Assembly: GCA_026985515.1 (NCBI GenBank)
Contig: JALSQH010000254.1
Location: 1-23,277 of the forward strand
DNA: 23,277 nt
Origin: a bacterium
GTDB taxonomy: Bacteria > JALSQH01
Reading direction: 5' to 3'
Position numbers and translations under genes: made by a program. Under the pieces are notes generated by a model. It ran no database searches and was not told where the DNA came from. It saw only the letters and a list, made by a program, of their open reading frames with translations. Shown piece after piece: positions 784-20,173 of the stretch. The first letter of the stretch is position 1; each line of letters starts with the position of its first letter.

Positions 784-1466
784 GAAAAGATTGAAACAAT
801 TTTTCTCCAGAGTTTCTTGAGCATCCACCACAGCACTTCGTACCACTTTGCCGGGACTTCCGCATAGAGAACCTTTGTGCGGGAGAGGTGAGTCATATCG
901 TAAAGGGAAATTTTCCATGTTACTGTATTCCAGTCAATTTCGTCAGCATTGGTCTCCACAACTTTCCGTGGCATGTGTACTTCATACGTAATGTAGTATT
1001 TCCCCATGGCTTCTTTTATTGCTTTCTCAATGATGGGGTTGTTCCGGCTTGCATGACCATAACCTTTGATTTTTATTCTCAGCACATACCTTCCACCTTC
1101 CAGATCCCAGGAGTATTCTGTTTGTTCATCATTCAGGTATTTGATATTGTCAAAGGCAACTATTATATGCACTCTCTCTGTGTCTTTACTTACATCCTTA
1201 AAGTCGATCTTAAGAAGTTTAACACCTTTTTTCCTTTCATAGTACTTCTTTATACCCTCAGGTGTCAGGGGGAACTGGTGAGTCATCATCCGCTGTTTTA
1301 CCACTGTGGCAAGAAGGCTCTTGTTAACAAGGTAAACAACATTCAGAACCCCTGAACCATCCAGATTGAGGTAGAATTTTGCAGTGTACTCCACGCAACT
1401 TGAAAGTTTCAGAATGAAAACGAGAAGGAGAAGGATTGTTAAGGATTTGAGCTTGTTTCTTAACAC
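780..1466 (-). CDS. Lipoprotein, LppM-like, unknown function
   Basis: A 228-residue protein beginning with GTG. The N-terminus has basic residues, a hydrophobic stretch and a lipobox LSSC, with the acylated Cys at residue 24, so it should be an anchored lipoprotein on the outer face of the inner membrane or in the outer membrane. The segment after the Cys (KFYLNLDGSGVLNVVY) resembles the opening strands of LppM-type domains, found in bacterial lipoproteins of unknown role. The C-terminus is rich in Trp and Lys (WMLKKLWRKIVSIFS) and looks like an amphipathic or membrane-associated helix. The GTG start is supported by a promoter whose -10 lies 6 nt upstream, implying a leaderless mRNA, and no Shine-Dalgarno is present. 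It lies downstream of the HU-tRNA unit but has its own promoter. Function unknown. Confidence 0.75.
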   Translation of the reverse strand: MLRNKLKSLTILLLLVFILKLSSCVEYTAKFYLNLDGSGVLNVVYLVNKSLLATVVKQRMMTHQFPLTPEGIKKYYERKKGVKLLKIDFKDVSKDTERVHIIVAFDNIKYLNDEQTEYSWDLEGGRYVLRIKIKGYGHASRNNPIIEKAIKEAMGKYYITYEVHMPRKVVETNADEIDWNTVTWKISLYDMTHLSRTKVLYAEVPAKWYEVLWWMLKKLWRKIVSIFS

Positions 1467-1472
1467 GGGAAA

Positions 1473-1501
1473 ATTTTATCAGAAAGGCATTTTGATGGCA
1501 A
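1473..1501 (-). promoter_or_regulatory. Sigma70-type promoter of the lipoprotein gene
   Basis: On the minus strand: TTGCCA (1501-1496), a 17-nt spacer, then TAAAAT (1478-1473) preceded by TGA (extended -10). Only 6 nt separate the -10 from the GTG at 1466, so transcription should start at or next to the start codon. The -35 overlaps the first base of the T8 tract that follows tRNA-Asp, so termination of the tRNA unit and initiation here share bases. Confidence 0.65.
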
Positions 1502-1508
1502 AAAAAAA
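1501..1508 (-). terminator. T8 tract directly after tRNA-Asp
   Basis: Eight T residues (minus strand) follow the encoded CCA end of tRNA-Asp without a gap. The stable stem-loops of the tRNA itself could provide the hairpin for intrinsic termination. There is no separate GC-rich hairpin between the tRNA and the T run. Alternatively this is only an A/T-rich spacer with 3' trimming by nucleases. Confidence 0.45.
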
Positions 1509-1585
1509 TGGCGGGGCCGACGAGACTTGAACTCGCGACCTCCGGCGTGACAGGCCGGCGTTCTAACCAGCTGAACTACGACCCC
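1509..1585 (-). tRNA. tRNA-Asp(GUC)
   Basis: On the minus strand a full cloverleaf can be folded. The 7-bp acceptor stem is GGGGTCG with CGGCCCC (one G-U pair), the anticodon stem is CCGGC/GCCGG around the loop CTGTCAC (anticodon GTC), and the T arm contains TTCAAGT. The CCA end is encoded in the DNA. Length is 77 nt including CCA. It is the last element of the HU-tRNA-Val-tRNA-Asp unit, 9 nt after tRNA-Val. Confidence 0.95.
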
Positions 1586-1594
1586 GCTCTAAAA

Positions 1595-1670
1595 TGGTGG
1601 GCGAAACAGGACTCGAACCTGTGGCCCCCAGCTTGTAAGGCTGGTGCTCTCCCAGCTGAGCTATTCGCCC
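1595..1670 (-). tRNA. tRNA-Val(UAC)
   Basis: On the minus strand: acceptor stem GGGCGAA paired with TTCGCCC, D arm containing AGCTCAGCTGGGAGAGC, anticodon stem CCAGC/GCTGG around CTTACAA (anticodon TAC), T loop TTCGAGT, discriminator A and encoded CCA. Length 76 nt. Its 5' end lies only 2 nt after the stop codon of the HU gene, so it must be released from the same primary transcript by RNase P. Confidence 0.95.
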
Positions 1671-1672
1671 CC

Positions 1673-1948
1673 TTATTTTTTAACTTCCTCTTTCAGACTT
1701 GAACTCGGTCTGAATTTTGGTACTCTGGTTGCTGGTATTTTTATCTTTTCCCTGGTTGCCGGGTTAATACCCTCTCTTTCCTTTCTCTCAACCACTTCAA
1801 AGATTCCAAAACCCGCAATGGAAACTCTTTCTCCCTTTTTCAATGCTTCCTTTATGATGCCAAAAACTGCATTTGTTGCATGTTCAGCATCCTTTTTCTT
1901 TAATCCAGTTTTTTCTGCCACCAGTTTCACAAGTTCACTTTTGTTCAT
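1673..1948 (-). CDS. hup: HU-family DNA-binding protein
   Basis: A 91-residue nucleoid protein, the usual length for HU. Family signatures in order: N-terminal helices starting MNKSELVKLVAEKTG; the turn and strand GFGIFEVVER; the flexible DNA-embracing arm with INPATREKIKIPA; and the closing VPKFRPSSSLK. HU dimers bind and bend DNA non-specifically, with a preference for distorted structures, and organise the chromosome. The ATG at 1948 is preceded by a strong Shine-Dalgarno (AAAGGAG) at good spacing. It is the first gene of a unit continuing into tRNA-Val and tRNA-Asp; its stop codon ends 2 nt before tRNA-Val. It could equally be named an HU/IHF-family protein, but the arm and the absence of IHF-specific features favour a homodimeric HU. 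Confidence 0.95.
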   Translation of the reverse strand: MNKSELVKLVAEKTGLKKKDAEHATNAVFGIIKEALKKGERVSIAGFGIFEVVERKEREGINPATREKIKIPATRVPKFRPSSSLKEEVKK

Positions 1949-1982
1949 TTTTACTCCTTTTATCTTTGATTTCCAGTTATTA

Positions 1983-2010
1983 ATTTTACACAGAGAAGCT
2001 ATTCTGTCAA
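1983..2010 (-). promoter_or_regulatory. Promoter of the HU-tRNA unit
   Basis: On the minus strand: consensus TTGACA (2010-2005), a 16-nt spacer and TAAAAT (1988-1983). A start near 1976 would give a leader of about 28 nt carrying the Shine-Dalgarno of the HU gene. A second TTGACA lies at 2035-2030 inside the end of the SpoIID gene but has no convincing -10 at the right distance. Confidence 0.65.
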
Positions 2011-2023
2011 GATGGAGTGCCGA

Positions 2024-3607
2024 TTACCTTGTCAATGCTTCATGAAAATAGAGTCTAATTCTGCTAATAGGGGTTATTCTTGTTCCTGGATAGTAAAATT
2101 GCAGGATTTCCCTGTAATTTTTCCCTGCTCTGGCCATGTAATAGGCACCCCACTGACTGAGTCCAACTCCGTGACCGTACCCCTTACCTTCAAAAATGTA
2201 GAGATTGCCTTTTTTCCTGAGAGTGAATATTGCACTTCTGATTTTTGAGGGACCAACGATTAATCGAAAATTGTTTGTTCTGATTTTGATATTCCCTCTT
2301 GATGTTTTGATGAGGAGGAATATCACTGTCTGGCCATCTCTTACCGGGATTATCTTTTTAACACTTCCCATGAATGGATATGCTCTTTTTAATCTGGTGG
2401 TTATTTCTGAAAGGGATAGGGTGTACCTCCACTTCTGGGGATGATACATACACCAGGGATCTATGCCTCTTGCAAAGTAGGGAAATGAAACTCCCCACAC
2501 ATTTTCAGGCACCTCCCTGAAGCCTCCGTCACAGGAGTGAAAGTATGCAAGAATGGGGTATCCGTTGTAGGTTAGAATTTCACCCTTTGTTGCCTCTATT
2601 GCCATGTTTGTAGCGGGATTTTCGATGGATGCCCCTTTGTACACCTGGGAAAGGACTGTGGATTCAAGATCATATTCATTTTTCTGCAGAATGTGGTATA
2701 GAGCATAGGTTCTTGCTGCCACTGCCTGTGCCTTCAGAGCTTCAAAGGGCCAGCGGGGATTGATCTCCCAGGGGAGTACTCCTTTCAGATAATCTTCCAG
2801 TGGGAGGACATTTATCACCTCTATTTTTCCATTATCCAGTAATTTCAGTATGAAGGATCCTCTGTATCGTTTCCCCCGGAAGGAAAGTGTTTTTCTATAT
2901 GATCTTATGGTGAAAGTTGTCCCGGCCGGGAATTGATTGCTGTTTATTTCCTGAAGAGATCTTAGTGTATCAGAGATCCCGCCTGGCAGAAAAACAGTTA
3001 TGGCAGAAAAGTTGATTTTACCCAGCTCCCTGAAAGAATGTATCATTCCCAGTTTAACCTTAACTGGTGGATTTTCAGGGATTGTGGCAAAGGGGGGCTT
3101 TCCGGTTTTCTTTTTCGAGGGCTTGTGAGTCCCTCTTTCCTGGATTTTGAATTTCTTAATTTCTCCCATCATGTAGTTGATCGAGGCAATTTCAGGACGA
3201 CCCCTGTAAATTGATTTTAGATTTTCAAGAATTTTTAAGGCCTTTTTTACTTCGCCTTTCCTCGCATGTGCCTGGGTAAGGCCAAAGAAGGATTTCAGGT
3301 ACTCTTCTGAAAAAGGTTTTGCATATTCAAGGGAGTGAGAGTATGCTTTCAGAGCATCCGAGGGATCATGGAGATAAAAGAGGTATATGTCTCCTTCTTC
3401 TTTGTAAAGTTTTGCCTTCTCGTGAGGTGATAGTTTAACGCTTTCCCATGTTTTCAGGTAGGATACCGCTCCCGCAAAATCCCCCCTGAGAATAAGCTCT
3501 CTGCTCTTCTGAATGAAAATGGGATCAGCAAAAAGGTATCTGTTGCTTAAAAGCAGAAGCAGGATATAATAAAGAATATGAAACTTTCCGAACTTATACG
3601 CAAACAT
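2024..3607 (-). CDS. SpoIID/LytB-domain exported protein
   Basis: A 527-residue protein in three parts. Residues 1-27 form an export signal (basic start, then a long Leu/Ile core ending YLFA). About 30-150 is a helical, TPR-like region (repeated Ala/Leu/Tyr pattern, for example DALKAYSHSLEYAKPF). About 240-510 is a SpoIID domain. In that domain the block EDYLKGVLPWEINPRWP, with the likely catalytic Glu281, is followed by EALKAQAVAARTYAL, HSCDGGFRE, ENVWG and the C-terminal GYGHGVGLSQWGA. SpoIID proteins of endospore formers are lytic transglycosylases that cut glycan strands lacking stem peptides; homologues outside spore formers probably remodel the cell wall. The gene's first 30 nt overlap the divergent orphan gene. 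No alternative ATG lies near, since the next is far inside the helical region. No Shine-Dalgarno; a TATAAT sits 13 nt upstream. Confidence 0.85.
   Translation of the reverse strand: MFAYKFGKFHILYYILLLLLSNRYLFADPIFIQKSRELILRGDFAGAVSYLKTWESVKLSPHEKAKLYKEEGDIYLFYLHDPSDALKAYSHSLEYAKPFSEEYLKSFFGLTQAHARKGEVKKALKILENLKSIYRGRPEIASINYMMGEIKKFKIQERGTHKPSKKKTGKPPFATIPENPPVKVKLGMIHSFRELGKINFSAITVFLPGGISDTLRSLQEINSNQFPAGTTFTIRSYRKTLSFRGKRYRGSFILKLLDNGKIEVINVLPLEDYLKGVLPWEINPRWPFEALKAQAVAARTYALYHILQKNEYDLESTVLSQVYKGASIENPATNMAIEATKGEILTYNGYPILAYFHSCDGGFREVPENVWGVSFPYFARGIDPWCMYHPQKWRYTLSLSEITTRLKRAYPFMGSVKKIIPVRDGQTVIFLLIKTSRGNIKIRTNNFRLIVGPSKIRSAIFTLRKKGNLYIFEGKGYGHGVGLSQWGAYYMARAGKNYREILQFYYPGTRITPISRIRLYFHEALTR
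3543..3570 (+). promoter_or_regulatory. Promoter of the orphan gene at 3578
   Basis: TTGCTT (3543-3548), a 16-nt spacer and a perfect TATAAT (3565-3570). The ATG at 3578 begins after 7 intervening bases, the normal distance to a transcription start, so the mRNA should be leaderless. The whole promoter lies inside the signal-peptide codons of the oppositely transcribed SpoIID gene. Confidence 0.6.
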
Positions 3608-4012
3608 GATTTCTTCGTAGATTATATCACATTTTATGAGGATGCCATAAATCTCTATATTGACGATAGGCTGAAAGAGGTTTATGGGGACAGAAAATTG
3701 AAAAAGGTCCTTGAGAGGTTTCTTGGTAAATTTGGGGAGAGAAGAGTCGTTTTTTTTCCCACAGATCTTGCATCAGCTCCACCACTTAATATTGTTCTGG
3801 GGAGTGAAGACTATAAATTCCTTTTTGAGTATGATGATTTCAAAGAGGGTGACATACTTGTAAAGACTGACCATGTTACAATGATGTCGGTGGGACTGAG
3901 AAGTATTTCCGTTTTGAGAGCTCTGATAGAGGAAAGAATGGATGTCTATCCTTTTTATCCATTACTTGAGAAAATAAGGCTTGCGAAGATCTTTAACCTC
4001 AGGATTTTTTAA
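3578..4012 (+). CDS. Small cytoplasmic protein, unknown function
   Basis: A 144-residue protein without a signal peptide, membrane segment or motif that I recognise. The first 60 residues look helical and charged (YIDDRLKEVYGDRKLKKVLERFLGKF). A strand-like VVFFPTDLAS follows, then KFLFEYDDFKEGDILVKTDH, and a helical end with several basic and aromatic residues. It is flanked by overlaps on both sides: 30 nt head to head with the SpoIID gene, and 14 nt tail to tail with the DnaK-like gene. The coding status is supported by a good leaderless-type promoter placed exactly before the ATG, and by a full-length frame with ordinary protein composition, but no family match is claimed. It could be lineage-specific. 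Confidence 0.6.
   Translation: MKLSELIRKHDFFVDYITFYEDAINLYIDDRLKEVYGDRKLKKVLERFLGKFGERRVVFFPTDLASAPPLNIVLGSEDYKFLFEYDDFKEGDILVKTDHVTMMSVGLRSISVLRALIEERMDVYPFYPLLEKIRLAKIFNLRIF
3621..3629 (-). promoter_or_regulatory. Extended -10 of the SpoIID gene
   Basis: On the minus strand TGATATAAT (3629-3621) is a perfect extended -10 element (TGnTATAAT). The matching -35 region is poor (for example TTATGG at 3650-3645), as is common for extended -10 promoters. Thirteen bases separate it from the ATG at 3607, predicting a leader of only about 5-7 nt. The element lies inside the coding region of the oppositely directed orphan gene. Confidence 0.5.
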
Positions 4013-5756
4013 AAAGGCTTTTGATCCTTTCCCATAGACTTTTTCTTTTACTTTCTTTTTTCTCTTCAACACTTTTTTCTCTATCCTCAGTTTCTCTATT
4101 AAGTTCTACTTTTTCCTCTTTTACCACTGGTTTTTCTTCTACCGCATCTTTTGAAGTAGATGGCATCTCTGTTTCAGATTCTTCCTTTTCCTGGACGGCT
4201 GTTATTTTTTTCTTCAGTATCTTGTCAGTCCTGTAGGTTTCCTTTCTCACATATCCATTGGTTTTGAAGACGGCTTTTACACTCTGACCCGTGTCAATAT
4301 CACGAGCTGAAACATGCAGAATGCTTTCTTCATCAAGCTTGAATGTTATTTCTATTTTAACTTCACCAGCTTTTGCCTTTCTTATATTGGGGAAGATGAA
4401 TTCTCCGATAAATTCGTTCTCCTCAACCCTGTCACTTTCACCCTGGTATATCTTTATCTTCACAGCAGGCTGATTGTCTCTAACAGTTTTGAATATCTGC
4501 TTTACCTCAGTTGGAACTCTCGTATTTTTCTTTATGAGCTTCTTAAATTTCCCCCTGGCGAGACCTATGCCTATGGATACAGGCAATACATCCACAAACA
4601 CCATGGGAGCTTCCCCTCTTTCAAGTACATCAGCAAGAATGGCTGCTCCCAGTGCCACAACTTCGTCGGGATGAACACCTTTTCTGGGTGGTCTACCAAA
4701 AAACTCGGTGACAGCTCTTGTGATTATGGGCATCCTGGTCTGTCCACCCACAAGAATAACTTCATTTATATCCGATGGCTTAAGATTAACTTCGTCAAGG
4801 GTCTGCTGAACAATTTTCAGTGTACGCTTCACGAGATCCATTGTGAGCTTTTCCACCTTTTCTCTTGTGAGGGTGATGTCCAGGTTCAGTGGTTTTCCAT
4901 TTTCGTCAACGGTTATGAAGGGAAGGCTGACCCTTGTTTCTGTAAGAGTTGATAGGTCCTTCTTGGCTCTCTCTGCTGCGTCCCTGAGTCGCTGCATGGC
5001 AATGGGATCCCTGCTGAGGTCGATCCCGGTCTGTTTTTTAAATTCGAGGACCATATGCTCAGCAATTCTCTGGTCAAAATCCATCCCCCCCAGAAAGGAG
5101 TCACCACCAATTGCCACCACTTCATATACATCTTCATACAGTTCCAGAATGGAAACATCAAATGTTCCTCCCCCCAGGTCATACACGAGAATCTTTTCAT
5201 TGAGTCTTTTCCCCCATCCATAGGCAAGGGCTGCTGCAGTGGGTTCATTGATGATCCTCAAAACCTTTAGCCCTGCCTTCTCACCTGCTCTCCTGACAGC
5301 TTCTCTCTGTTTCTCATTGAAGTAAGCGGGGACTGTGATTACTGCCCTGTCCACTTCCTCCTCTAAATAATCTTCTGCAATTTCCTTCAGCTCTTCGAGA
5401 ATAAGAGCTGAAACATCGGTCAGATCAAGCACCTTTCCTGCAACTCTTATTGCCGCTTCATCCCGGGGACCTTCAACTATGTCATACATGAACTTCAATT
5501 TTGCCTTTTTAACTATACCGGAGGTGTAGTGTCTGCCCATCAGCCTTTTTGCACCGAGAACTGTATCTCTTGGATTTATAACCATCTGCCTTTTGGCTGC
5601 CTGACCAACGAGTCTGTGGCCTTTATTATCGTAGGCTATCATGGAGGGAACAACCGGATCACCCTGGGGGCTTGGAATAACTTTAGGCCTCCCATTCTCC
5701 ACAATGGCAACCGCCGAATTTGTTGTACCAAGGTCAATTCCGACTACTCTTCCCAT
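3999..5756 (-). CDS. DnaK/Hsp70 paralogue lacking the helical lid
   Basis: A 585-residue Hsp70. The ATPase domain (about 1-375) is complete: GIDLGTTNSAVAI (phosphate 1), NEPTAAALAYGWG, DLGGGTFDVSILEL (phosphate 2) and VGGQTRMPIIT (adenosine). The linker DVLPVSIGIG and the beta substrate-binding part with NTRVPTEVKQIFKT, DNQPAVKIKIYQGE and LHVSARDIDTG follow to about residue 500. Where a standard DnaK (about 610-640 residues) has its alpha-helical lid, this protein has about 77 residues of low-complexity Glu/Lys sequence ending in SLWERIKSLFKKS, which looks amphipathic. It should bind and hydrolyse ATP and bind peptides, but without a normal lid substrate release would be fast. No grpE, dnaJ or second dnaK is adjacent, so it is probably a specialised paralogue. 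The ATG at 5756 has a promoter 9 nt upstream and no Shine-Dalgarno. Confidence 0.88.
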   Translation of the reverse strand: MGRVVGIDLGTTNSAVAIVENGRPKVIPSPQGDPVVPSMIAYDNKGHRLVGQAAKRQMVINPRDTVLGAKRLMGRHYTSGIVKKAKLKFMYDIVEGPRDEAAIRVAGKVLDLTDVSALILEELKEIAEDYLEEEVDRAVITVPAYFNEKQREAVRRAGEKAGLKVLRIINEPTAAALAYGWGKRLNEKILVYDLGGGTFDVSILELYEDVYEVVAIGGDSFLGGMDFDQRIAEHMVLEFKKQTGIDLSRDPIAMQRLRDAAERAKKDLSTLTETRVSLPFITVDENGKPLNLDITLTREKVEKLTMDLVKRTLKIVQQTLDEVNLKPSDINEVILVGGQTRMPIITRAVTEFFGRPPRKGVHPDEVVALGAAILADVLERGEAPMVFVDVLPVSIGIGLARGKFKKLIKKNTRVPTEVKQIFKTVRDNQPAVKIKIYQGESDRVEENEFIGEFIFPNIRKAKAGEVKIEITFKLDEESILHVSARDIDTGQSVKAVFKTNGYVRKETYRTDKILKKKITAVQEKEESETEMPSTSKDAVEEKPVVKEEKVELNRETEDREKSVEEKKESKRKSLWERIKSLFKKS

Positions 5757-5765
5757 CAGAACTTA

Positions 5766-5794
5766 ATTATACTTTTAATCTTGACATTTTTCAA
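5766..5794 (-). promoter_or_regulatory. Promoter of the DnaK-like gene
   Basis: On the minus strand: TTGAAA (5794-5789), a 17-nt spacer and a perfect TATAAT (5771-5766). Nine bases separate it from the ATG at 5756, so the transcript should be leaderless or carry only 1-3 extra bases. It overlaps the divergent promoter at 5781-5809 by 14 bp, so the two cannot be occupied together. No CIRCE element or sigma32-like sequence is seen. Confidence 0.65.
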
Positions 5795-5809
5795 AAAAGG
5801 TTTTATTAT
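5781..5809 (+). promoter_or_regulatory. Promoter of the exported-protein gene at 5819
   Basis: A consensus TTGACA (5781-5786), an optimal 17-nt spacer and TATTAT (5804-5809). Nine bases separate the -10 from the ATG at 5819, which implies a leaderless or nearly leaderless mRNA. The core overlaps the divergent DnaK-like promoter. Confidence 0.65.
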
Positions 5810-5818
5810 TTTGCGAAA

Positions 5819-7027
5819 ATGAAACAGCTGTTCAGTTTATTGATTTTTCTTTTAGTGCCGATACATCTTGCAGGGTGGAACTCCATAAGAGTCATTGTGG
5901 TTAAGGGAAGTAGATTCCCTGATCTAAAAGGGAAGCCCCTTGCTGCTCTCCATCTTTTCAGGTGTGAGGGAACCTCTCTCGTTTCAATACCATATCAGTG
6001 GGATGAGAAAGATGGGCAGAATAAATTTATCTTTTCTGGTGGTCCCGGAACTCTTTCAGAAAATGATGAGCTTGTATTCAGGTTTTCAGATGGCGGGGAA
6101 AGATGCAATCTACCAGATTTTCACGGGTATGAGATTGCAGTAAGACATGCGGGAGAGGTGAAGTATTTTTACCTTTTGTGCTGCCCTGCTCCTTCAATTG
6201 TCAGAGAGACAGAAGATTATGTGAGTGTGAGTAAGAATTTTAATGTGAAGACCCAGAGGTATGAAATGATTTTTTCAGATAAATACAAAATAGTGCCACT
6301 GGAGTTTGTTTACAGGGAGAAAAATCGTGAAATCCATTTTATGGATGAGGTAAAGACCAGAATCTTTCTCAAGTTTTTCAGATTTTTTCACATTACAAAG
6401 AATGAAACTGATTTTGTAACCAGGAAGCTTGGGGTAATTGATGGTAAGGTCAGGGGTGTATTGGGTATGAAAAACTACACAAAAATGGCTTTTGGAATAC
6501 CTGCTTTTCCCATTTACACTGCTGTGGAGGTGTATCCAGATTATGTTAAATTTCCTGTTCAGATTGAAATTCCCATCGTTCCAGATTCTTTTAAAATAAA
6601 ACTCTGCAATGACTTTAACAACCTGATAGGCTGGAAGGTATATTCTTCATGCAGCAAAAGAGGTTATGTGGTTAAGGGTAACCCCGCCGGGATTGAAGGG
6701 TATAAATGTGACGGGTGGAAGTGGTTTGCCCTTTCAGGCAGGGATTTTTCATTCTGGGTGCTGAGTTTACTTCCACAAAATTATCCAGTGAAGTTTGGTT
6801 TTTACCTCCAGGATGATAAAAATTTCCTTGATCCGCCAGAAAGGTTTCCGGGAGAGGTGCCCGGGATTGGATGGGATATAAGATCACTCAGGAAAATTGA
6901 GAAAAAGGTTAGAAAAATAAGTTTTACCATTTATGACCTTTTTGCTCCTCCCTATCATCCCGGTGACGAAAAATTGATAATCAGGGACCTTCTGTCGGAA
7001 CCCGATATTAAAGTGAATTTCAGGTAA
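5819..7027 (+). CDS. Exported protein, unknown function
   Basis: A 402-residue protein with a clear N-terminal signal (MKQLFSLLIFLLVPIHLAGW; cleavage after Ala18 is plausible). The frame stays open upstream to 5720, but that part lies inside the DnaK-like gene and before the promoter, so the ATG at 5819 is chosen. The mature part is rich in beta-type alternation and aromatic residues and contains several Cys (CCPAP, KLCNDF, YSSCSKRG, GYKCDGW) that may form disulphides. Motifs such as YQWDEKDGQN, FRFSDGG and GVIDGKVRGVLG do not match a family I know. There is no C-terminal Phe, so it is more likely periplasmic than an outer-membrane barrel. Its stop overlaps the convergent SDR gene by 8 nt. 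Confidence 0.7.
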   Translation: MKQLFSLLIFLLVPIHLAGWNSIRVIVVKGSRFPDLKGKPLAALHLFRCEGTSLVSIPYQWDEKDGQNKFIFSGGPGTLSENDELVFRFSDGGERCNLPDFHGYEIAVRHAGEVKYFYLLCCPAPSIVRETEDYVSVSKNFNVKTQRYEMIFSDKYKIVPLEFVYREKNREIHFMDEVKTRIFLKFFRFFHITKNETDFVTRKLGVIDGKVRGVLGMKNYTKMAFGIPAFPIYTAVEVYPDYVKFPVQIEIPIVPDSFKIKLCNDFNNLIGWKVYSSCSKRGYVVKGNPAGIEGYKCDGWKWFALSGRDFSFWVLSLLPQNYPVKFGFYLQDDKNFLDPPERFPGEVPGIGWDIRSLRKIEKKVRKISFTIYDLFAPPYHPGDEKLIIRDLLSEPDIKVNFR

Positions 7028-7922: not shown

Positions 7923-7927
7923 TATAC

Positions 7928-8978: not shown

Positions 8979-9653
8979 TTATAGAATCAATCCAATTATA
9001 ACCGGTATCAGAATCAATATCAAGGTGGCGAGAATCCATATTATGAAGGGGGTTTCCAGAAGTTCGTCAATACTCTCTTCAACATAGAATGTGGCGACTT
9101 TCTTAACGACTTTCATAAATCTTGCCTTGCTGGTAAATTCTGTTCCTTTTACTTCTGGAGACTCTGTAAGTGAAAAAAGCACATCAGCAGTGATCTGGTA
9201 AGCCTTTGATTTGATAAATTTCGTGAGGAAGAAACCTCTGCCCTCTTTAATTTTTTCAGCTTTTAATCGCAGTTTCCTGATCTGATTATCTATGACACTG
9301 AACAGATTCTGGGTTACTTTTTCAGAATCAGAAACTCTGTCTACTGCAGAGAGGGAGAGAGAAACTGCACTCCCCACAACACTTTCAAGGAATCCTGTTT
9401 CAATAACCAGGTATTTGATTCCGCCAGTGACACCCAGGATGATTCCTCCGGCGATACCCGAGAGCGTGCCTGCAGGGATAAAATAGATCAACCAGTACCA
9501 CGAGTGGAGAAGAGAGAGTTTTAGTAACAGAAAGAACAGGCCAAAACCCGCCCCTGTACCAATGAGTGCACCAAGCAGAGTTATTACAACGACTTTCAAA
9601 AGAGCGTGGGGTATCTTTTTCAGGGGTAACTCAGGTATTGGTATGGTATCCAT
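8979..9653 (-). CDS. Membrane protein, unknown function
   Basis: The chosen ATG at 9653 gives 224 residues; an in-frame GTG at 9686 would add 11 residues, but it lies in the -35 of the likely promoter. After a short cytoplasmic-type start there are two hydrophobic, glycine-rich segments (about 20-45, and about 55-85 with IAGGIILGVTGGI). A long soluble middle with many charged residues follows (DNQIRKLRLKAEKIKEGRG), and then a C-terminal transmembrane helix (IIWILATLILILIPVIIGLIL). No family recognised. It is the first gene of the operon with the PanE-family and TIGR01777 genes (16 nt to the next). The promoter -10 is 7 nt upstream of the ATG, implying a leaderless mRNA. Confidence 0.7.
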   Translation of the reverse strand: MDTIPIPELPLKKIPHALLKVVVITLLGALIGTGAGFGLFFLLLKLSLLHSWYWLIYFIPAGTLSGIAGGIILGVTGGIKYLVIETGFLESVVGSAVSLSLSAVDRVSDSEKVTQNLFSVIDNQIRKLRLKAEKIKEGRGFFLTKFIKSKAYQITADVLFSLTESPEVKGTEFTSKARFMKVVKKVATFYVEESIDELLETPFIIWILATLILILIPVIIGLIL

Positions 9654-9660
9654 ACTTCTA

Positions 9661-9688
9661 ATTTTATTTTTAATGAGAAAAAACACAA
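9661..9688 (-). promoter_or_regulatory. Promoter of the membrane-protein operon
   Basis: On the minus strand: TTGTGT (9688-9683, weak match), a 16-nt spacer and TAAAAT (9666-9661). The ATG at 9653 follows after 7 bases. The divergent promoter for the long plus-strand operon starts only 10 bp away. Confidence 0.5.
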
Positions 9689-9698: not shown

Positions 9699-9726
9699 TT
9701 GACATGATGCAGGTAAATGGTATTAT
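9699..9726 (+). promoter_or_regulatory. Promoter of the THEP1-to-ispG operon
   Basis: Consensus TTGACA (9699-9704), a 16-nt spacer and TATTAT (9721-9726). The predicted start near 9733 gives a leader of about 32 nt that contains the Shine-Dalgarno AGGGAGGG (9752-9759) of the first gene. No other promoter of this quality was seen before the following genes, so it probably serves the whole run to ispG. Confidence 0.65.
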
Positions 9727-9764
9727 TGTTTATTGTGGGGATGAGGAACATAGGGAGGGAAAAA

Positions 9765-10340
9765 ATGTCAAATAAAACGATGCAAAAAAATCTGCTTATT
9801 ACTGGCAAGCCAAGAACCGGAAAAACCACTCTGGTTGTTAACGTTATCAGAAGGCTGGATCTTCCATTTTGCGGTTTTTACACAAGTGAATTGTTGAAAA
9901 ATGGGAATAGAGTGGGTTTTGTAATAAACAATCTGCGAGGTGAAAGGGGGATTTTTGCGTATGTGGATTCTGAGTCGGATATAAGAGTATCCAGATATGG
10001 AGTGGAACTTGATGTGCTTGAAGCAGTTGGAGTGAGTGAGGTGGAGAGGTGTTCAAGGGATCATGAACCCAAAATAATTGTAATTGATGAGATTGGCAAA
10101 ATGGAACTTTTTTCAGAACCTTTTAAACAGTCGGTTCTCAGATCGCTTAATTCACCCTTTCCAGTTCTTGCCACAGTGATGGGAAGGGGAGATGAATGGG
10201 TCGCTGAGAATGTTTTAAGCAGGGAAGACATAAAACTTTTCATGATAAATGTGAATAATCGCAAACAGATTGAGGATAAAATAGTTCGTATTCTTCCTGG
10301 CATATTTAGAGAGATTGAGCAGAATTTGAAAGTTATCTGA
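9765..10340 (+). CDS. THEP1-like nucleoside-triphosphatase
   Basis: A 191-residue P-loop NTPase. Walker A is GKPRTGKTT near the N-terminus. The family block FCGFYTSELLKNGNRVGFVI and NLRGERGIFA follow, then Walker B IIVIDEIGKMELFS and a downstream LATVMGRG. THEP1 proteins (named from an Aquifex enzyme) slowly hydrolyse ATP, GTP and other nucleotides, and their cellular role is unresolved. The ATG at 9765 is preferred because AGGGAGGG lies 5 nt before it; the ATG at 9741 lacks a good site. It is the first gene of the operon, 23 nt before the first PpiC-like gene. Its association with periplasmic chaperones and uvrA is unexplained. Confidence 0.85.
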   Translation: MSNKTMQKNLLITGKPRTGKTTLVVNVIRRLDLPFCGFYTSELLKNGNRVGFVINNLRGERGIFAYVDSESDIRVSRYGVELDVLEAVGVSEVERCSRDHEPKIIVIDEIGKMELFSEPFKQSVLRSLNSPFPVLATVMGRGDEWVAENVLSREDIKLFMINVNNRKQIEDKIVRILPGIFREIEQNLKVI

Positions 10341-12404: not shown

Positions 12405-13304
12405 ATGAAGACTCTTTTGCTGCTCCTCCTAACGCTGTACTTTAATAAGCCTCGTACTGTGGAGAAGCTCTTGTTCACAGTGGATGGAAAGCCTTTTTTC
12501 CTTTCTGATTACGTGGCTTATCTTGAATTGAAGAATTTGAAAAAAATCTCCACTCCTCCTGCATCATTCGATTCTTTGAAGGATTTCATAAATTTTGTAT
12601 TGATGAGTGAGGAGGCAAGCGCCAGGGGTTACTCAGTATCAGAGGCGGATATTGATAAAGATATTACGATGATTGCACTTAAAACAGGTGTTGACAGGGA
12701 TTCTCTTCTGAACTTTGTTCATCAAAAGTTTGGAATATCTCCTGAGAAGTTCAGAGAGATGAGGAGGAGATACATACTTGTCAATTATCTGCTTTCTCCC
12801 TATTTGAGGAACATAAGAATTGACCAGGATGAAGTAGAGGCATTCTACAGACAGCATATTCGTGATTTTTCTAAGAAGAGAGTGAAGGTGATTCTCATCA
12901 CTTCTGAGAGAGAGGTAAAGTTTTATTCTAAAATTTCTCCCTCTGAGTTACACTCCTACTTTCCTGATGCTTCCACTTCTGTAATGGAAGTAAAAGAGGG
13001 TGAGTTTAAGCGATCTCTTGAAAGAGAGATTTTCTCTGCCAGAAAGGGAGATATTGTGGGTCCACTGAAGGGAGGTGGCAAATTCACCTATTTCTATCTT
13101 CTGGATGATCCCGCTATTTCACCGGAACCCCTTGAAAGTGTCAGAGACAAAATTGTTGAGATACTCCAGGAGGAAAAGAGAGAAGAAGTTGTAAATAAGA
13201 TTCTTGAGGAGATTTCATTCAATCACTACCTTGAAAAATGTTTTTCGGTAAAAAATGATGAAGTTGATTTTGACCAGCGGGGATCCTGCGGGAGTGGGCA
13301 GTGA
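12405..13304 (+). CDS. SurA/PpiC-like exported protein 3
   Basis: A 299-residue protein starting 5 nt after the previous stop. It begins with a short Leu-rich segment (MKTLLLLLLTLYF) that may be a signal peptide or anchor, but has no lipobox Cys. FTVDGKPFFLSDYVAYLE is the typical opening of SurA N domains. Helices and RIDQDEVEAFYRQHIRDF follow, and then a degenerate parvulin-like part ending GDIVGPLKGGGKFTYFYLLDD. It is placed immediately before pdxA, the position of surA in E. coli, and could be the functional counterpart. Its 3' end overlaps the pdxA start by about 50 nt. Role inferred: periplasmic chaperone for outer-membrane proteins. Confidence 0.75.
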   Translation: MKTLLLLLLTLYFNKPRTVEKLLFTVDGKPFFLSDYVAYLELKNLKKISTPPASFDSLKDFINFVLMSEEASARGYSVSEADIDKDITMIALKTGVDRDSLLNFVHQKFGISPEKFREMRRRYILVNYLLSPYLRNIRIDQDEVEAFYRQHIRDFSKKRVKVILITSEREVKFYSKISPSELHSYFPDASTSVMEVKEGEFKRSLEREIFSARKGDIVGPLKGGGKFTYFYLLDDPAISPEPLESVRDKIVEILQEEKREEVVNKILEEISFNHYLEKCFSVKNDEVDFDQRGSCGSGQ

Positions 13305-14274: not shown

Positions 14275-17083
14275 TCTGAAAAGTATTAATCTGGATATTC
14301 CCAAGGAGAGATTTGTCATTATAACCGGACTGAGTGGTTCCGGGAAATCCTCTCTTGCTTTCAACACAATTTATGCCGAAAGTCAGAGACTCTACATTGA
14401 AAGCCTTTCAACCTATGCCAGACAGTTTCTGGGCCAGATGCAGAAGCCTGATGTGGATTTTATTGAGGGTCTTTCCCCTTCCATAGCCATAGAACAGCGA
14501 ACAATTACCCATAATCCGAGATCCACAGTTGGAACTGTGACTGAGGTTTACGATTATCTCAGGCTGTTGTTTGCCAGAGTGGGTAAGGCCTACTGTTACA
14601 GGTGTGGTAGGGAAATAACATCTCAGACTCCCCAGCAGATGGTGGATAAGATTATGAGTTATCCGCCCGGGACGAGAATTCTTGTTCTTGCTCCTGTGGT
14701 GAGGGGGAAAAAGGGGGAATTCAGGGATCTTTTCAGAAGACTTTTAAAGATGGGGTATGTGAGAGTTTTTGTGGATGGGGAGATGAAAGATCTCGAATCT
14801 CCCATTGATCTGGATAAAAATAAGAAACACGATATTGATGTTGTGGTGGACAGGCTTGTAATCAGCAGTGATATAAGGGGAAGATTGACAGATTCTGTGG
14901 AGCAGGCTCTTGAACTTGCCGACGGGGTTTTGAAGATAAGAAACTATGATACCGGGGAGGAGGAGCTTTTCAGCAGCAAGTTTGCCTGTGTTTACTGTGG
15001 CATCAGTTACCCCGATATTGAACCCAGATTATTTTCTTTTAACAGTCCATATGGCGCATGTCCTGTATGTCAGGGACTGGGGGTAACCTATACCTTTGAT
15101 GAGGAGGATATTTTTCCTTCCCCCCATTTACCCATTAAAAGTGCTCTTGCCTCCTGGGTACACATTGGAAGAATCTTTGAAATGAAGTTGAAGGATCTCT
15201 TTCTGTATTATGGTTACGATTTTCACACACCATACAGGGAACTGCCCCCAGAGTTCAGACGGAAGATCCTCTATGGAACAGATGATCCCATTCCCATTAC
15301 CAGAGGTGGGGCAAAGTACAGGGGCTACTGGAAGTATGAGGGTATAGTAAACTACCTGCTGGAGAGGTATGGTGAATCAGAGGGTGACGAGTTTATGGAA
15401 ATCTCTTCTCATCTCAAATACAGGACCTGTCCTGCCTGTGGAGGAGCGAGACTTCGCAAAGAGGCACTCCATGTCAAAATAGCAGGTAAGAATATATATG
15501 AAGTCACGCAAATGACTGTTAAAAAAGCCCTTGAATTCTTCAAGTCCCTTCAATTTCAGGGAAAGGATAAGATCATAGCTGAAAAGATAATTAAAGAAAT
15601 TGTCAACAGGCTAAGTTTTATGGCTGATGTGGGACTTGATTATCTGACCCTTGATCGTACAATGGGAACCCTCTCTGGAGGTGAAGCTCAGAGGATAAAA
15701 CTTGCAACGCAGATAGGTTCAAGATTGACGGGGGTACTTTACATCCTTGATGAGCCAAGCATTGGACTCCATCCGAGAGATGTTGACAGATTGATAAACA
15801 GTCTCAAGCAGTTGAGGGACCTGGGAAACACTGTAATAGTTGTGGAGCATGATGAGTCCACCATAAGAAGTGCCGATTTCATTGTTGATCTTGGTCCTGG
15901 AGCGGGGGAGAAGGGTGGTGAAGTTGTCGTTGCAGGTACCATTGATGATGTGATGAAATGTGAGAGGTCTCTCACGGGTCAATATCTGAGTGGAAAGAAA
16001 AGGATACCACTTCCTGCAAGAAGGAGAAAGAAAGCGGCTGGTTACATAAAAATAAGAGGAGCAAGGACGCATAATCTGAAAAACATCGATGTGGATATTC
16101 CTCTGGGAATGTTTGTGGGAATAACGGGTGTTTCAGGGTCGGGAAAGAGCAGTCTCATTGTTGATCTTCTCTATCCTGCTTTAAGAAAACTTACCTATTA
16201 CAGGGAAGAAAAATTTTCTTCAGAAGAGGTGGATGAAATCTCCATAAAAAAGGGATGGGTAGAGAAGGTGATTAATGTTGATCAATCCCCCATAGGAAGA
16301 ACACCCAGATCAAATCCCGCCACCTATATCGGTGTTTTTGACAGCATAAGGGAACTTTTTGCAATGTTGCCTGAAGCAAGGGCAAGGGGATACACAAAGA
16401 GCAGATTCAGTTTTAATGTCAGAGGAGGAAGATGTGAAGCGTGTAAAGGGGAAGGTGTGGTGAGAATAGAGATGCACTTCCTTCCAGATATGTATATCGT
16501 ATGTGATGAATGCAAGGGAAAGAGATACAACAGAGAGACTCTGGAGGTGAAACTCAAGGGGAAAAGTATAGCAGATGTCCTTGATATGACCGTAAGTGAA
16601 GCCCTCGAATTCTTTGCAAATTTCCCGAAGATAAAGAGGAAACTTCAGTTTCTTGCTGATGTTGGACTTGATTACATAAAACTTGGCCAGCCATCCACAA
16701 CCTTCTCCGGAGGGGAGGCACAGAGGATTAAACTTGGAAGAGAACTTCTCAGAAGAAGCACCGGAAGGATCGTGTACATCCTTGATGAACCCACCACAGG
16801 ATTGCACTTTGATGATGTGAAAAAATTGATAGATGTACTTCAGAGACTGGTTGATGCGGGTAATACGGTTATCATAATTGAACACAACCTTGATGTACTG
16901 AAGTCTGTTGATTACATTATAGATCTTGGACCTGAAGGTGGTGAAGAAGGAGGTATGGTTGTTGCTGAGGGTACCCCGGAAGAGATTGCCATGAATGATA
17001 AGAGCTACACTGGAAAATTCCTGAGAAAGGTTTTGTGGACACAGAACAATGAAGATAGAGAGAAGGAAAACCCGACAGATTAG
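14237..17083 (+). CDS. uvrA: Excinuclease ABC subunit A
   Basis: A 948-residue protein, full length for UvrA, the damage-sensing ATPase of nucleotide excision repair that loads UvrB. Two ABC ATPase modules are complete. Walker A GLSGSGKSSLAF is near residue 30-40 and GVSGSGKSSLIV near 630. The signatures LSGGEAQRIKLATQIGS (about 478) and FSGGEAQRIKLGRELL (about 823) are present, as are Walker B YILDEPSIGLHP and YILDEPTTGLHF. Zinc-type Cys pairs occur at CYRCG, CVYCG with CPVCQGLG (about 252-280), CPACGGARL, and CEACKGEG with CDECKGKRY (about 731-758). The ATG at 14237 has AGGA upstream and overlaps pdxA by 38 nt; the 3' end overlaps ispG by 35 nt. All key residues look intact. Confidence 0.97.
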   Translation: MKYIRIRGAREHNLKSINLDIPKERFVIITGLSGSGKSSLAFNTIYAESQRLYIESLSTYARQFLGQMQKPDVDFIEGLSPSIAIEQRTITHNPRSTVGTVTEVYDYLRLLFARVGKAYCYRCGREITSQTPQQMVDKIMSYPPGTRILVLAPVVRGKKGEFRDLFRRLLKMGYVRVFVDGEMKDLESPIDLDKNKKHDIDVVVDRLVISSDIRGRLTDSVEQALELADGVLKIRNYDTGEEELFSSKFACVYCGISYPDIEPRLFSFNSPYGACPVCQGLGVTYTFDEEDIFPSPHLPIKSALASWVHIGRIFEMKLKDLFLYYGYDFHTPYRELPPEFRRKILYGTDDPIPITRGGAKYRGYWKYEGIVNYLLERYGESEGDEFMEISSHLKYRTCPACGGARLRKEALHVKIAGKNIYEVTQMTVKKALEFFKSLQFQGKDKIIAEKIIKEIVNRLSFMADVGLDYLTLDRTMGTLSGGEAQRIKLATQIGSRLTGVLYILDEPSIGLHPRDVDRLINSLKQLRDLGNTVIVVEHDESTIRSADFIVDLGPGAGEKGGEVVVAGTIDDVMKCERSLTGQYLSGKKRIPLPARRRKKAAGYIKIRGARTHNLKNIDVDIPLGMFVGITGVSGSGKSSLIVDLLYPALRKLTYYREEKFSSEEVDEISIKKGWVEKVINVDQSPIGRTPRSNPATYIGVFDSIRELFAMLPEARARGYTKSRFSFNVRGGRCEACKGEGVVRIEMHFLPDMYIVCDECKGKRYNRETLEVKLKGKSIADVLDMTVSEALEFFANFPKIKRKLQFLADVGLDYIKLGQPSTTFSGGEAQRIKLGRELLRRSTGRIVYILDEPTTGLHFDDVKKLIDVLQRLVDAGNTVIIIEHNLDVLKSVDYIIDLGPEGGEEGGMVVAEGTPEEIAMNDKSYTGKFLRKVLWTQNNEDREKENPTD

Positions 17084-18122
17084 GGTGGGTGATGTTACTG
17101 TGGGAGGAGATGCCCCTGTGAGGGTTCAATCGATGACATCAACAGATACGAGAAATGTGAAAGCAACTCTTGATCAGATTCACAGATTGTATGAGGCAGG
17201 TTGCGAAATAGTTCGTGTGGCTGTTCCAGATATGGAAGCTGTCAGTGCTCTAAAAAGGATTGTTAAAGCTTCCCCCATACCTGTGATTGCAGATATCCAT
17301 TTTCACTACAAGCTTGCAATAGAATCGGTCAGGGCAGGTGCTGGAGGTATCAGGATCAATCCCGGAAATATCGGAGGCATTGAGCGTCTCAGGGAAGTTG
17401 TCAGAGCGTGTAAGGATTATGGAGTACCCATCAGAGTGGGAGTTAATTCTGGTTCTGTGGAGAGGGACCTTCTGGAGAAATATGGCTATCCATCTCCGGA
17501 GGCAATGGTGGAGAGTGCGGTGAGGCATGTGAAGATGCTTGAAGATATGAACTTTACCATGATAAAGGTCTCTGTAAAGTCCAGCAGGGTAAAGGATACC
17601 ATTGAGGCTAACCGACTTCTTTCAAAGAAGATTGATTATCCCATTCATCTTGGAGTAACTGAGGCTGGTCCATTTCCTGAGGGAGCCATAAAAACTGCTG
17701 TGGCATTTGGGGTACTTCTCAGCGAAGGTATTGGGGATACCATAAGAGTCTCTCTGACAGATGATCCCGTGAAAGAAGTTGAAGTGGGATATGAGATACT
17801 GAAGTCCCTGGAGATAAGGAGCAGGGGGGTTAACATAATCAGCTGTCCAACCTGTGGCAGAATAGAAATAGATGTAATCTCTCTCACAAAAAAGGTGAAA
17901 GAAAAATTGAAAAGTATAACGAAACCCATAACTGTTGCCATCCTGGGATGCGTTGTCAATGGTCCCGGTGAGGCTGCGGAGGCAGATGTGGCTCTTGCAG
18001 GTGGGAAGCATGTGGGGATTATCTATGTCCGGGGGAAGTATTATAAAAAGGTAAGAGAAGAAGAGATGGTGGATGAACTCTACAAAACTGTTCTTGATTA
18101 CCTTGAGGGAAAGATAAACTGA
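17049..18122 (+). CDS. ispG: 4-hydroxy-3-methylbut-2-enyl diphosphate synthase
   Basis: A 357-residue enzyme of the short bacterial form. IspG (GcpE) converts methylerythritol cyclodiphosphate to HMBPP in the MEP isoprenoid pathway using a 4Fe-4S cluster. The start RRKTRQIRVGDVTVGG and VRVQSMTSTDT is canonical, so the ATG at 17049 inside uvrA is right. The TIM barrel contains VIADIHFHYKLA, GIRINPGNIGG and HLGVTEAG. The cluster ligands are CPTCGR (about 264 and 267) and GCVVNGPGEA (about 299), with the cluster Glu in PGEA. Last gene of the plus-strand operon, overlapping uvrA by 35 nt and the convergent geranylgeranyl-reductase-family gene by 25 nt. It indicates use of the MEP rather than the mevalonate pathway. 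Confidence 0.97.
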   Translation: MKIERRKTRQIRVGDVTVGGDAPVRVQSMTSTDTRNVKATLDQIHRLYEAGCEIVRVAVPDMEAVSALKRIVKASPIPVIADIHFHYKLAIESVRAGAGGIRINPGNIGGIERLREVVRACKDYGVPIRVGVNSGSVERDLLEKYGYPSPEAMVESAVRHVKMLEDMNFTMIKVSVKSSRVKDTIEANRLLSKKIDYPIHLGVTEAGPFPEGAIKTAVAFGVLLSEGIGDTIRVSLTDDPVKEVEVGYEILKSLEIRSRGVNIISCPTCGRIEIDVISLTKKVKEKLKSITKPITVAILGCVVNGPGEAAEADVALAGGKHVGIIYVRGKYYKKVREEEMVDELYKTVLDYLEGKIN

Positions 18123-19174
18123 GAAATATTTCTCCAGAGAAGCGTAATAAAAATAAAAGGATGCCTGTATATTTCCCCATAACCTGAAAGGCGCGAGAGA
18201 TCTTTTTGAAGTTTTTTGTCTGAAATCATTTTCAACCACTTTTCGCCATATCTGCTGTAAATCAGAGAAGATAAAAGGGTATTGAACCTGAATTTTTTCC
18301 CTGTAAAACTTGAGTATAACGCACTGTAGTAATTGGGAAAATCTCTTCTGCCCCTTGAGGTGCTCCATATTATTTCTCTTGCTGCCAGCATTCCCATTTC
18401 TATGGCGGGTGCTATCCCCTCTCCAAGAAGTGGATCAACTCCAATTCTCTCTCCCACAAGTATTAATCCTTTCTTCCAGTGGGGATTGAGTGGTGAGTAG
18501 AGATGCTCTGCTGCTCCCTCCATGAAATTTTTTTGAGGTCTTCCCTGAAAGTAAAAATACCCCTTTGAAGTTGTCTCAACAGAAGGTATTGTCCAGTGAT
18601 AACCCCTCTGCCCCTTATTGTGAAAAAATGTGAATGTGGGATTGCCATCTTCTGCCGAATCTGTCCTCACTACCAGCAGAGGTACTATTTTTCCTTTGAG
18701 GGGAAGAATTTTTCTTGTTATTCCTCTGATCCCATCTGCTCCAACAATTATTTCTCCTTCTAACTTTCCACATCTGGTATCCACTTCCCAGTGTTCTTCT
18801 TTTTCAATGATTGATAAAACTTCACAGTTATCTCTAATTTCAATTCCCATATCAAGTGCGTGTTGAGCCAGATTATGATCAAATTTCTCTCTTTTTACAA
18901 TTATTCCACTTTCCCGCCCCTTAACTGTGATTTCTCTATCCCTGAAGCGAAGGGTAACTGTATCATAGGGAATCCCCTCCTTGTATTTGAATTTGAGTTT
19001 TTCCAGCAATTTCACTCCCTCTGGGGTGATCATCCCGCCACACGGTTTATGCCGGGGGTATCTGTACTTTTCAAGAATTGTAATTCTGTCCTTCCATTCA
19101 GGTTTCAGCAGAACCAGGGTTATTCCGGTGCTCAGGCCGGCAGGTCCACCTCCAATAATTACCACTTTTTTCAT
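18098..19174 (-). CDS. Geranylgeranyl reductase family flavoprotein
   Basis: A 358-residue FAD-dependent oxidoreductase. The dinucleotide motif GGGPAGLSTG is at residues 8-17. The family hallmark PRHKPCGGMITPEG follows near residue 42, then IVGADGIRGITRK and the second FAD motif VDPLLGEGIAPAIEMGMLAAREI. Members saturate isoprenoid chains (chlorophyll side chain, archaeal lipids, menaquinone side chains) or act on other lipids; the substrate cannot be chosen from sequence. The segment before the second FAD motif reads GERIGVDPL rather than the common GDAAGxVxPL, a small departure. Its ATG overlaps the stop of the upstream hydrolase by ATGA, so the two are co-translated. It converges on ispG, whose product feeds isoprenoid supply. 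Confidence 0.88.
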   Translation of the reverse strand: MKKVVIIGGGPAGLSTGITLVLLKPEWKDRITILEKYRYPRHKPCGGMITPEGVKLLEKLKFKYKEGIPYDTVTLRFRDREITVKGRESGIIVKREKFDHNLAQHALDMGIEIRDNCEVLSIIEKEEHWEVDTRCGKLEGEIIVGADGIRGITRKILPLKGKIVPLLVVRTDSAEDGNPTFTFFHNKGQRGYHWTIPSVETTSKGYFYFQGRPQKNFMEGAAEHLYSPLNPHWKKGLILVGERIGVDPLLGEGIAPAIEMGMLAAREIIWSTSRGRRDFPNYYSALYSSFTGKKFRFNTLLSSLIYSRYGEKWLKMISDKKLQKDLSRLSGYGEIYRHPFIFITLLWRNISQFIFPSR

Positions 19175-20136
19175 TTCTCAATCAATGGTTGTTTTACAGG
19201 GGTTCCGTCTGACCATAGTCCCATAAATCTAGCTTCAGGGGTGTCATTAATATAATTGCAATTTTCTCCGTAGAAACTGCATTCAATCAGTGCTTCTGAC
19301 CATTTCCAGAAACCATACCAGTCAAGGGCATTTGTTGTACTTTCTCCAGAGAGGGGAGCGAGGTGATCTGCAATGAGAGGATAATCCCCATGAGAATCAC
19401 TCAGCATTGTAATTCTTGTTTTTCTGTAAGATGGGATCCTGGTTGCTTCATTAAAGATTTTATCTGCGTAGATTGAGCCTGCAACGAAATCATCTTCGGC
19501 AGATAGGGTGATCAACAGCGTGCTGGTGGGAATTCCATTGAAATTTTCCTCTTTCAGGGGCAGAACCGTACCTGGCTCAACGGCAAAAATACATGCAGGT
19601 TCTGGCAGAGACAATTTTCTGTACATTCCAGCTATCACCGCAGAAAAGTAACCTCCAAGTGAATGTCCCATAAAGCATATTCTGAGGGAGTGGGGTATAT
19701 CCTCGTTGTCAAGGATCTTTAGAGCCCTTGTGGTTGAGGAAGTCAGGTTGTTGAACATGGACTCAATGTCAACACTCAGCATTGTCTGATAATATGGATA
19801 AATGATGATATTCCCCTTTCTGACAATGTGGGAAATCCACAGCCTGTAAAAATCAGGGGAAATAGCAGTGTAACCATGTATGAAAACAACCACTGGAGCA
19901 GCAGAGGAGAGATTGTCTGGATAGAAAATCTTTACTTTTCCTGCTCCCTCTCCATCCTCAATTATGCTGATTGTGGAGAATAAATAATTGCTCCCCTCTG
20001 GTCCCGAATCAGGTTGTTTCACGGGAGGTAATATTTTTTCTCTAAGGTTGCTCTCTTTCTTTACCTGTTTTTTCTCCTGCCCACATCCTGCCGGGAGGAT
20101 GAGAAGAGATAAAATGAGAAGAAACTTTTTCATCAT
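19171..20136 (-). CDS. Lipoprotein alpha/beta hydrolase
   Basis: A 321-residue lipoprotein with lipobox LPAGC (Cys18). The hydrolase fold shows the oxyanion strand VVVFIHGYTA, the nucleophile elbow GHSLGG with Ser159, an acid residue in LSAEDDFVAG (Asp215 or Asp216) and a likely catalytic His249 in SDSHGDYPLIADH. The set suggests an active esterase or lipase-like enzyme anchored in the envelope; platelet-activating-factor-acetylhydrolase-like or dienelactone-hydrolase-like families are possible. Two adjacent ATGs (20136 and 20133) are possible starts; no Shine-Dalgarno is seen and the -10 is 8 nt before the first, so the mRNA is probably leaderless. It forms a two-gene operon with the downstream flavoprotein, which suggests a lipid substrate (inference). 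Confidence 0.85.
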   Translation of the reverse strand: MMKKFLLILSLLILPAGCGQEKKQVKKESNLREKILPPVKQPDSGPEGSNYLFSTISIIEDGEGAGKVKIFYPDNLSSAAPVVVFIHGYTAISPDFYRLWISHIVRKGNIIIYPYYQTMLSVDIESMFNNLTSSTTRALKILDNEDIPHSLRICFMGHSLGGYFSAVIAGMYRKLSLPEPACIFAVEPGTVLPLKEENFNGIPTSTLLITLSAEDDFVAGSIYADKIFNEATRIPSYRKTRITMLSDSHGDYPLIADHLAPLSGESTTNALDWYGFWKWSEALIECSFYGENCNYINDTPEARFMGLWSDGTPVKQPLIEK

Positions 20137-20144
20137 CCAGAGAA

Positions 20145-20173
20145 ATTATACCTCACCAGGTGTATCTCCTCAA
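20145..20173 (-). promoter_or_regulatory. Promoter of the hydrolase-flavoprotein operon
   Basis: On the minus strand: TTGAGG (20173-20168), a 17-nt spacer and a perfect TATAAT (20150-20145). The first ATG follows after 8 bases. The short palindrome CACCAGGTG (20154-20162) lies between the two hexamers and could be an operator, though at 9 bp it may be chance. Confidence 0.65.

Follow-up and report, generated by a model that had tools for sequence, protein, structure and literature searches.

Whether an uncultured bacterium of this lineage begins many of its transcripts at, or almost at, the start codon of the first gene is the question raised by the window, the 23,277-nt stretch of DNA analyzed here, which forms one contig, 254, of a draft genome (G000; 2.36 Mb, 268 contigs, GC 0.40). 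The first-pass annotation had proposed leaderless mRNAs for six first genes with -10 hexamers ending 6, 7, 9, 9, 7 and 8 nt before their start codons and without a Shine-Dalgarno (SD) sequence, and had reported a -10 distance of 13 nt for the SpoIID gene, a -35 hexamer at 16-17 nt for five of the six, with a weak one at 9653, and leaders with SD sequences for the HU, THEP1-type and OmpA-type genes. All of these distances were re-measured and found to be exact (Table 1). Upon re-inspection no usable SD was found at any of the six starts (1466, 3578, 5756, 5819, 9653 and 20136), and the leaders and SD sequences of the other three genes were seen as described.

Table 1. Promoters, SD sequences and start codons of the leadered and putatively leaderless genes in the window, with the promoter layouts of their orthologs in the related species G001 (numbers within layouts are distances in nt).
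Gene	Strand	Span	-35	-10	SD	Start codon	Layout in window	Layout in G001
HU gene	-	1946..2010	TTGACA 2005-2010	TAAAAT 1983-1988	AAAGGAG ~1954-1960	ATG 1946-1948		
THEP1-type NTPase gene	+	9699..9767	TTGACA 9699-9704	TATTAT 9721-9726	AGGGAGGG 9752-9759	ATG 9765 (probable)		
OmpA-type gene	+	20210..20274	TTGACA 20210-20215	TATAGT 20234-20239	AAAAGGGGG 20255-20263	ATG 20272		
Lipoprotein-like gene 780-1466	-	1464..1501	TTGCCA 1496-1501	TAAAAT 1473-1478		GTG 1464-1466	TTGCCA-17-TAAAAT-6-GTG	TTGAAA-17-TAGAAT-8-ATG
Orphan gene 3578-4012	+	3543..3580	TTGCTT 3543-3548	TATAAT 3565-3570		ATG 3578	TTGCTT-16-TATAAT-7-ATG	TTGCGG-16-TAAAAT-7-ATG
SpoIID gene	-	3605..3629		Extended, TGA-TATAAT, hexamer 3621-3626		ATG 3605-3607	-10 to ATG, 13	-10 to ATG, 13
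DnaK/Hsp70-family gene 3999-5756	-	5754..5794	TTGAAA 5789-5794	TATAAT 5766-5771		ATG 5754-5756	TTGAAA-17-TATAAT-9-ATG	TTGAAA-17-TATAAT-11-ATG
Exported orphan gene 5819-7027	+	5781..5821	TTGACA 5781-5786	TATTAT 5804-5809		ATG 5819	TTGACA-17-TATTAT-9-ATG	TTGACA-17-TATCTT-7-ATG
Membrane-protein gene 8979-9653	-	9651..9688	TTGTGT 9683-9688	TAAAAT 9661-9666		ATG 9651-9653	TTGTGT-16-TAAAAT-7-ATG	Extended, TGG-TACAAT, at 10
Alpha/beta-hydrolase lipoprotein gene 19171-20136	-	20134..20173	TTGAGG 20168-20173	TATAAT 20145-20150		ATG 20134-20136	TTGAGG-17-TATAAT-8-ATG	TATAAT-8-ATG

These arrangements were compared with those of G001, the sole comparison species from the same phylum, which belongs to another genus of the same family. 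Its contig L194 is syntenic with the window, orthologs of all of the genes in question are present, and the ortholog proteins are ~45-82% identical. All six orthologous starts in G001 have a -10 nearby, at 7-11 nt (the start of the 5819 ortholog was taken directly from the L194 sequence). The weak promoter of gene 9653 scored 4.6, under our threshold, and the corresponding promoter in G001 scored 6.5. The SD sequences of the HU, OmpA-type and 8962 genes are conserved in G001 as well, and so is the promoter of the OmpA-type gene. A promoter match close to a THEP1 start at 9741 was dismissed as an artefact of a wrong start, and the start at 9765, which has an SD, was preferred. The promoters of the 5819 gene and the DnaK gene are interleaved, the promoter and start of gene 3578 fall within the SpoIID coding sequence, and the extended -10 and start of SpoIID, for which a leader of ~6-7 nt is predicted, fall within the coding sequence of 3578.

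For gene 1466 the HU-tRNAVal-tRNAAsp context is found at the G001 ortholog too, with identical gene order, and a tRNA-Asp on the same strand ends ~42 nt upstream of the gene. It could be argued from this that the gene is co-transcribed with HU and the two tRNAs and that its mRNA receives its 5' end from tRNA 3' processing, leaving a leader of ~40 nt. However, the tRNA is followed by a run of T and then by a two-box promoter that is conserved in G001, and the stretch between the tRNA and the GTG has no SD, which makes this origin of the transcript improbable.

Errors in gene starts are common, and if the true start codons lay downstream these genes would have ordinary leaders. Indeed, the home-made caller that set the start codons in our genome sample, which is blind to upstream signals, misplaced the starts of 1466 and 5819. 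The protein sequences nonetheless make such errors a very improbable account of the six promoters. The G001 orthologs are colinear with the window products from the first residues (from residue 1 in the case of 3578), and the signal or lipoprotein peptides of the 1466, 5819 and 20136 products, with their lipoboxes, require the starts given in Table 1. The product of 5756 matches Pfam HSP70, and its N-terminus, MGRVVGIDLGTTNS, supports the start that was assigned, as a later one would drop the conserved GIDLGTTNS segment. On this evidence, wrong starts were rejected as the sole explanation.

The genome-wide search for -10 motifs that the first-pass annotation suggested was run on a sample of 764 kb, or ~32% of the window's own draft assembly, and returned a clear enrichment. 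The class that was counted comprised genes preceded by a -35/-10 two-box promoter, with a distance of 5-11 nt between the end of the -10 and the start codon. Such promoters were present at 25 of 136 divergent-first genes, compared with a mean of 0.72 and a maximum of 3 in 200 dinucleotide shuffles, at 12 of 73 genes with a same-strand gap of 20-70 nt (0.35 shuffled) and at 6 of 77 with a same-strand gap of at least 70 nt (0.32 shuffled); for operon-internal genes the count was 1/349 versus 1.13 shuffled. The corresponding figure for divergent-first genes of G001 was 10/36, versus 0.32 shuffled. When alternative starts were allowed, the real matrices identified 40 genes and 40 column-permuted decoy matrices a mean of 2.0 and a maximum of 6. 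Chance as the sole explanation was rejected on the basis of the shuffles and decoys. Summed over all first-type genes, the signal was found at 45/286 (15.7%) in G000 and 18/69 (26%) in G001.

The positions of the matches were also informative. The histogram of -10 distances is bimodal, with a peak at 6-9 nt in the genome sample and a trough at 12-18 nt; for divergent-first genes the counts in 7-nt bins from 5 nt upward were 25, 7, 16, 14, 8 and 7. Hexamers resembling a -35 (at least 4/6 matches) occurred at a spacer of 16-18 nt in 25 of 43 genes of the leaderless type and at other offsets in 1-9 of the 43. An SD was found at only one of the 25 leaderless-type divergent-first genes versus 67 of the other 111, a depletion to which geometry contributes, as the -10 takes up the place of the SD. 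No 16S rRNA from which to read the anti-SD was found in the G000 or G001 assembly.

In a genome with a GC content of 0.40, hexamers of this kind might be no promoters at all but AT-rich, unstructured sequence that aids SD-independent initiation on longer leaders, and the starts of non-SD genes elsewhere are often unstructured. This idea is hard to reconcile with the concentration of -35 hexamers at the 16-18 nt spacer, with a peak that neither shuffles nor decoy matrices reproduce, and with the finding of a second promoter farther upstream at just 2 of the 43 genes. Moreover, the signal was absent from two unrelated genomes of similar GC, G003 (GC 0.40; 0/136 first-type genes) and G008 (GC 0.37; 0/75). 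AT-richness as the sole explanation is largely refuted by the spacing, the shuffles, the decoys and these two genomes, and we give the idea very little credence.

Escherichia coli K-12 (GC 0.51) likewise had no such promoter at any of 160 first-type genes in the same pipeline, which brings the combined count for it, G003 and G008 to 0/371. The two-box signal was found at 4 of 118 first-type genes in G009 and at 11 of 72 in the unrelated G014. Plasmid 1 of Deinococcus deserti scored 2/126, and its TANNNT profile has the expected peak at 6 nt (6 versus a background of 0.5), which agrees with the published independence of Deinococcus leaderless promoters from a -35 (PMC12340547); the two-box score is a poor positive control on this plasmid because its leaderless promoters do not have a -35.

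Judging from the DNA sequence, this organism very probably does use leaderless or near-leaderless (~0-5 nt) transcription, beside SD-led translation. The explanation that we favor, and consider highly likely, is that sigma-70-type promoters lie so near to the coding sequence that transcripts start at, or within ~0-5 nt of, the start codon. A two-box promoter for the housekeeping sigma factor (sigma-70/RpoD type) would adjoin the coding sequence, RNA polymerase would initiate on the start codon or within ~0-5 nt of it, and the resulting mRNA, without an SD, would present a 5'-terminal AUG or GUG to 70S ribosomes, or to 30S subunits with initiator tRNA and IF2. Initiation by 70S or IF2-assisted 30S ribosomes on a 5'-terminal codon is described for leaderless mRNA (PMC9031893). 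The promoter architecture, its enrichment and its conservation were read directly from the DNA, and it is from them that we infer the 5' ends of the transcripts and the mode of ribosome entry. On these counts the leaderless type would make up about 1/6 to 1/4 of promoter-proximal genes, the remainder being mostly SD-led. Across all genes sampled from G000 its share would be no less than ~6-7%.

How strictly leaderless these messages are is a finer question. The -10 lies most often at ~8 nt, and at 9-11 nt in many genes. With +1 exactly on the A of the ATG the distance would be 6 nt, 1-2 nt less than the mode, so that 1-3 nt may precede the start codon in many messages; the mode suggests a leader of 0-3 nt for most genes of this type. 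As such, the first-pass reading stands in so far as near-leaderless promoters are genuine, common and conserved in G001, and needs to be qualified as to the last few nucleotides. It is quite possible, although we would put it below an even chance, that transcription starts 6-7 nt past the -10 and yields leaders of 1-7 nt, to which ribosomes bind independently of an SD in a mode that tolerates a short 5' end, as the modal distance and the SpoIID spacing in both genomes would allow. Such messages would be functionally near leaderless, and the trough at 12-18 nt points to an avoidance of leader lengths between ~5 nt and those of SD leaders.

With near-leaderless transcription as the preferred reading, we also considered which genes use it. 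Among reciprocal ortholog pairs of the G000 and G001 samples, four were leaderless in both, nine were SD-led in both and none was mixed, the remaining pairs lacking an assignment for at least one member; between the two genera, the mode of a gene appears to be conserved in evolution. The first-pass annotation had set regulatory and orphan genes, as leaderless, apart from HU and the major envelope gene. Pfam searches of 40 leaderless-type and 40 SD-led first genes did not uphold that division: regulators were identified both in the leaderless set (XRE-cupin, TetR, DtxR-like, GGDEF) and in the SD-led set (GntR, Fur, a sigma-54 activator, P-II), and proteins of unknown function occur in both. The leaderless set also includes the DnaK paralog, RsmI-type and PrmA methyltransferases, TatA and a DegT aminotransferase. 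The data do support a tendency of ribosomal and other highly codon-adapted genes to be SD-led. Eight of the 40 SD-led genes, but none of the 40 leaderless ones, encode ribosomal proteins, RpoA, aminoacyl-tRNA synthetases or HU (one-sided p ~0.003, calculated by hand and post hoc), and leaderless genes show lower codon adaptation, measured against the ribosomal cluster (0.703 versus 0.727, p = 2e-4). The most codon-adapted core genes tend, then, to be SD-led, and because regulators and unknowns sit in both sets the wording that is supported is that the highest-expressed core genes retain SD leaders. In D. radiodurans leaderless genes showed no pathway bias (PMC12340547). We speculate, while regarding it as rather unlikely in full, that in this lineage leaderless genes form a heritable class without switching between genera, that this class excludes highly expressed genes, and that its compactness permits head-to-head overlapping genes with promoters within each other's coding sequence.

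Leaderless starts, such as those of 1466 and 5819, are easily misplaced because standard start prediction leans on the SD, and misplaced starts harm the annotation of signal peptides and promoters. Since G014 shows a similar signal and two genomes of similar GC show none, the trait should be scorable from sequence across uncultured phyla. The present lineage, apparently isolated at phylum level among the genomes compared, adds to the patchy occurrence of leaderless expression among bacteria and is relevant to whether the mode is ancestral or was gained repeatedly. The best matches to its IspG protein are mostly alphaproteobacterial, at ~55% identity. No prior report of leaderless genes in this lineage was found in the literature searched.

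The closest parallel is with Deinococcus-Thermus, in which TA-led genes have a -10 directly before the start and no SD, exist alongside an SD-led class and are conserved among relatives (Zheng 2011, PMC3160421; Zhong 2025, PMC12340547), all of which applies here. The leaderless -10 motif of Deinococcus lies ~6-7 nt from the start and is active without a -35 (PMC12340547), whereas the mode here is ~8 nt and the promoters are full -35/-10 pairs, the enrichment of the -35 setting them apart from a -10-only type. Actinobacteria similarly mix a leaderless minority with an SD-led majority; the cases of Mycobacterium tuberculosis (PMC3898074) and M. smegmatis (PMC4633059) are based on 5'-end mapping together with ribosome profiling, whereas ours was read from sequence, in a genome of 40% rather than high GC. 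In Firmicutes, Aquificae, delta-Proteobacteria and other groups leaderless genes are described at lower frequency, likewise with a TATAAT-type signal, ~12 bp before the start (PMC3160421; GeneMarkS-2 survey summarized in PMC9581028), and survey estimates of the leaderless share run from a few to ~30% of genes. Leaderless expression is already known, then, from Actinobacteria, Deinococcus-Thermus and others, and its extension to this phylum-level lineage, with two species compared, appears to be new.

The SpoIID gene (minus strand) and the orphan gene starting at 3578 (plus strand) overlap head-to-head by 30 bp (window 3578-3607), such that the promoter of each lies within the coding sequence of the other. 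A 30-bp overlap is likewise present between their orthologs in the related genome G001, which belongs to another genus of the same family (L194:8212-8241), and approximately 40 bases surrounding the SpoIID extended -10 are identical between the two genomes. Synteny with G001 (L217) was also apparent at window 780-1948, where the gene order is HU, tRNA-Val, tRNA-Asp and a lipoprotein gene with a leaderless-type promoter (-10 ending 5-11 nt before the start codon). A T-run immediately 3' of the tRNA in this region may be a terminator.

Leaderless-type promoters were also identified at three PF09820 (AAA-ATPase-like) genes, two of which are nearly identical. These genes form a multi-copy family, and the promoter may move along with the gene. 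In the unrelated control genome G014 (L257-L266), leaderless-type promoters were found in a similar fraction (11/72).

PF09820 genes with leaderless-type promoters and -35 elements of the DnaK-type/5819 spacer
Feature	Position	Strand
PF09820 gene	L112:2-295	
PF09820 gene	L156:4805-5458	
PF09820 gene	L190:5283-6608	
-35, plus-strand promoter	5781-5786	+
-35, minus-strand promoter	5789-5794	-

The top named relatives of IspG (window 17049-18122) are mostly from Alphaproteobacteria, at ~55% identity, in a searched set from which the lineage's own relatives may be absent; the gene may have been horizontally transferred.

The DnaK-type gene and the exported orphan gene at 5819, each leaderless-type, are separated by a 62-bp spacer (window 5757-5818) carrying two interleaved promoters, and therefore polymerase occupancy of the two should be mutually exclusive. 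The same layout is present in G001, in which the 5819 ortholog (L194:5290-6000) aligns as several pieces in differing frames, and so looks frameshifted or affected by an assembly error. In E. coli, symmetric bidirectional promoters are on record (PMC12825309).
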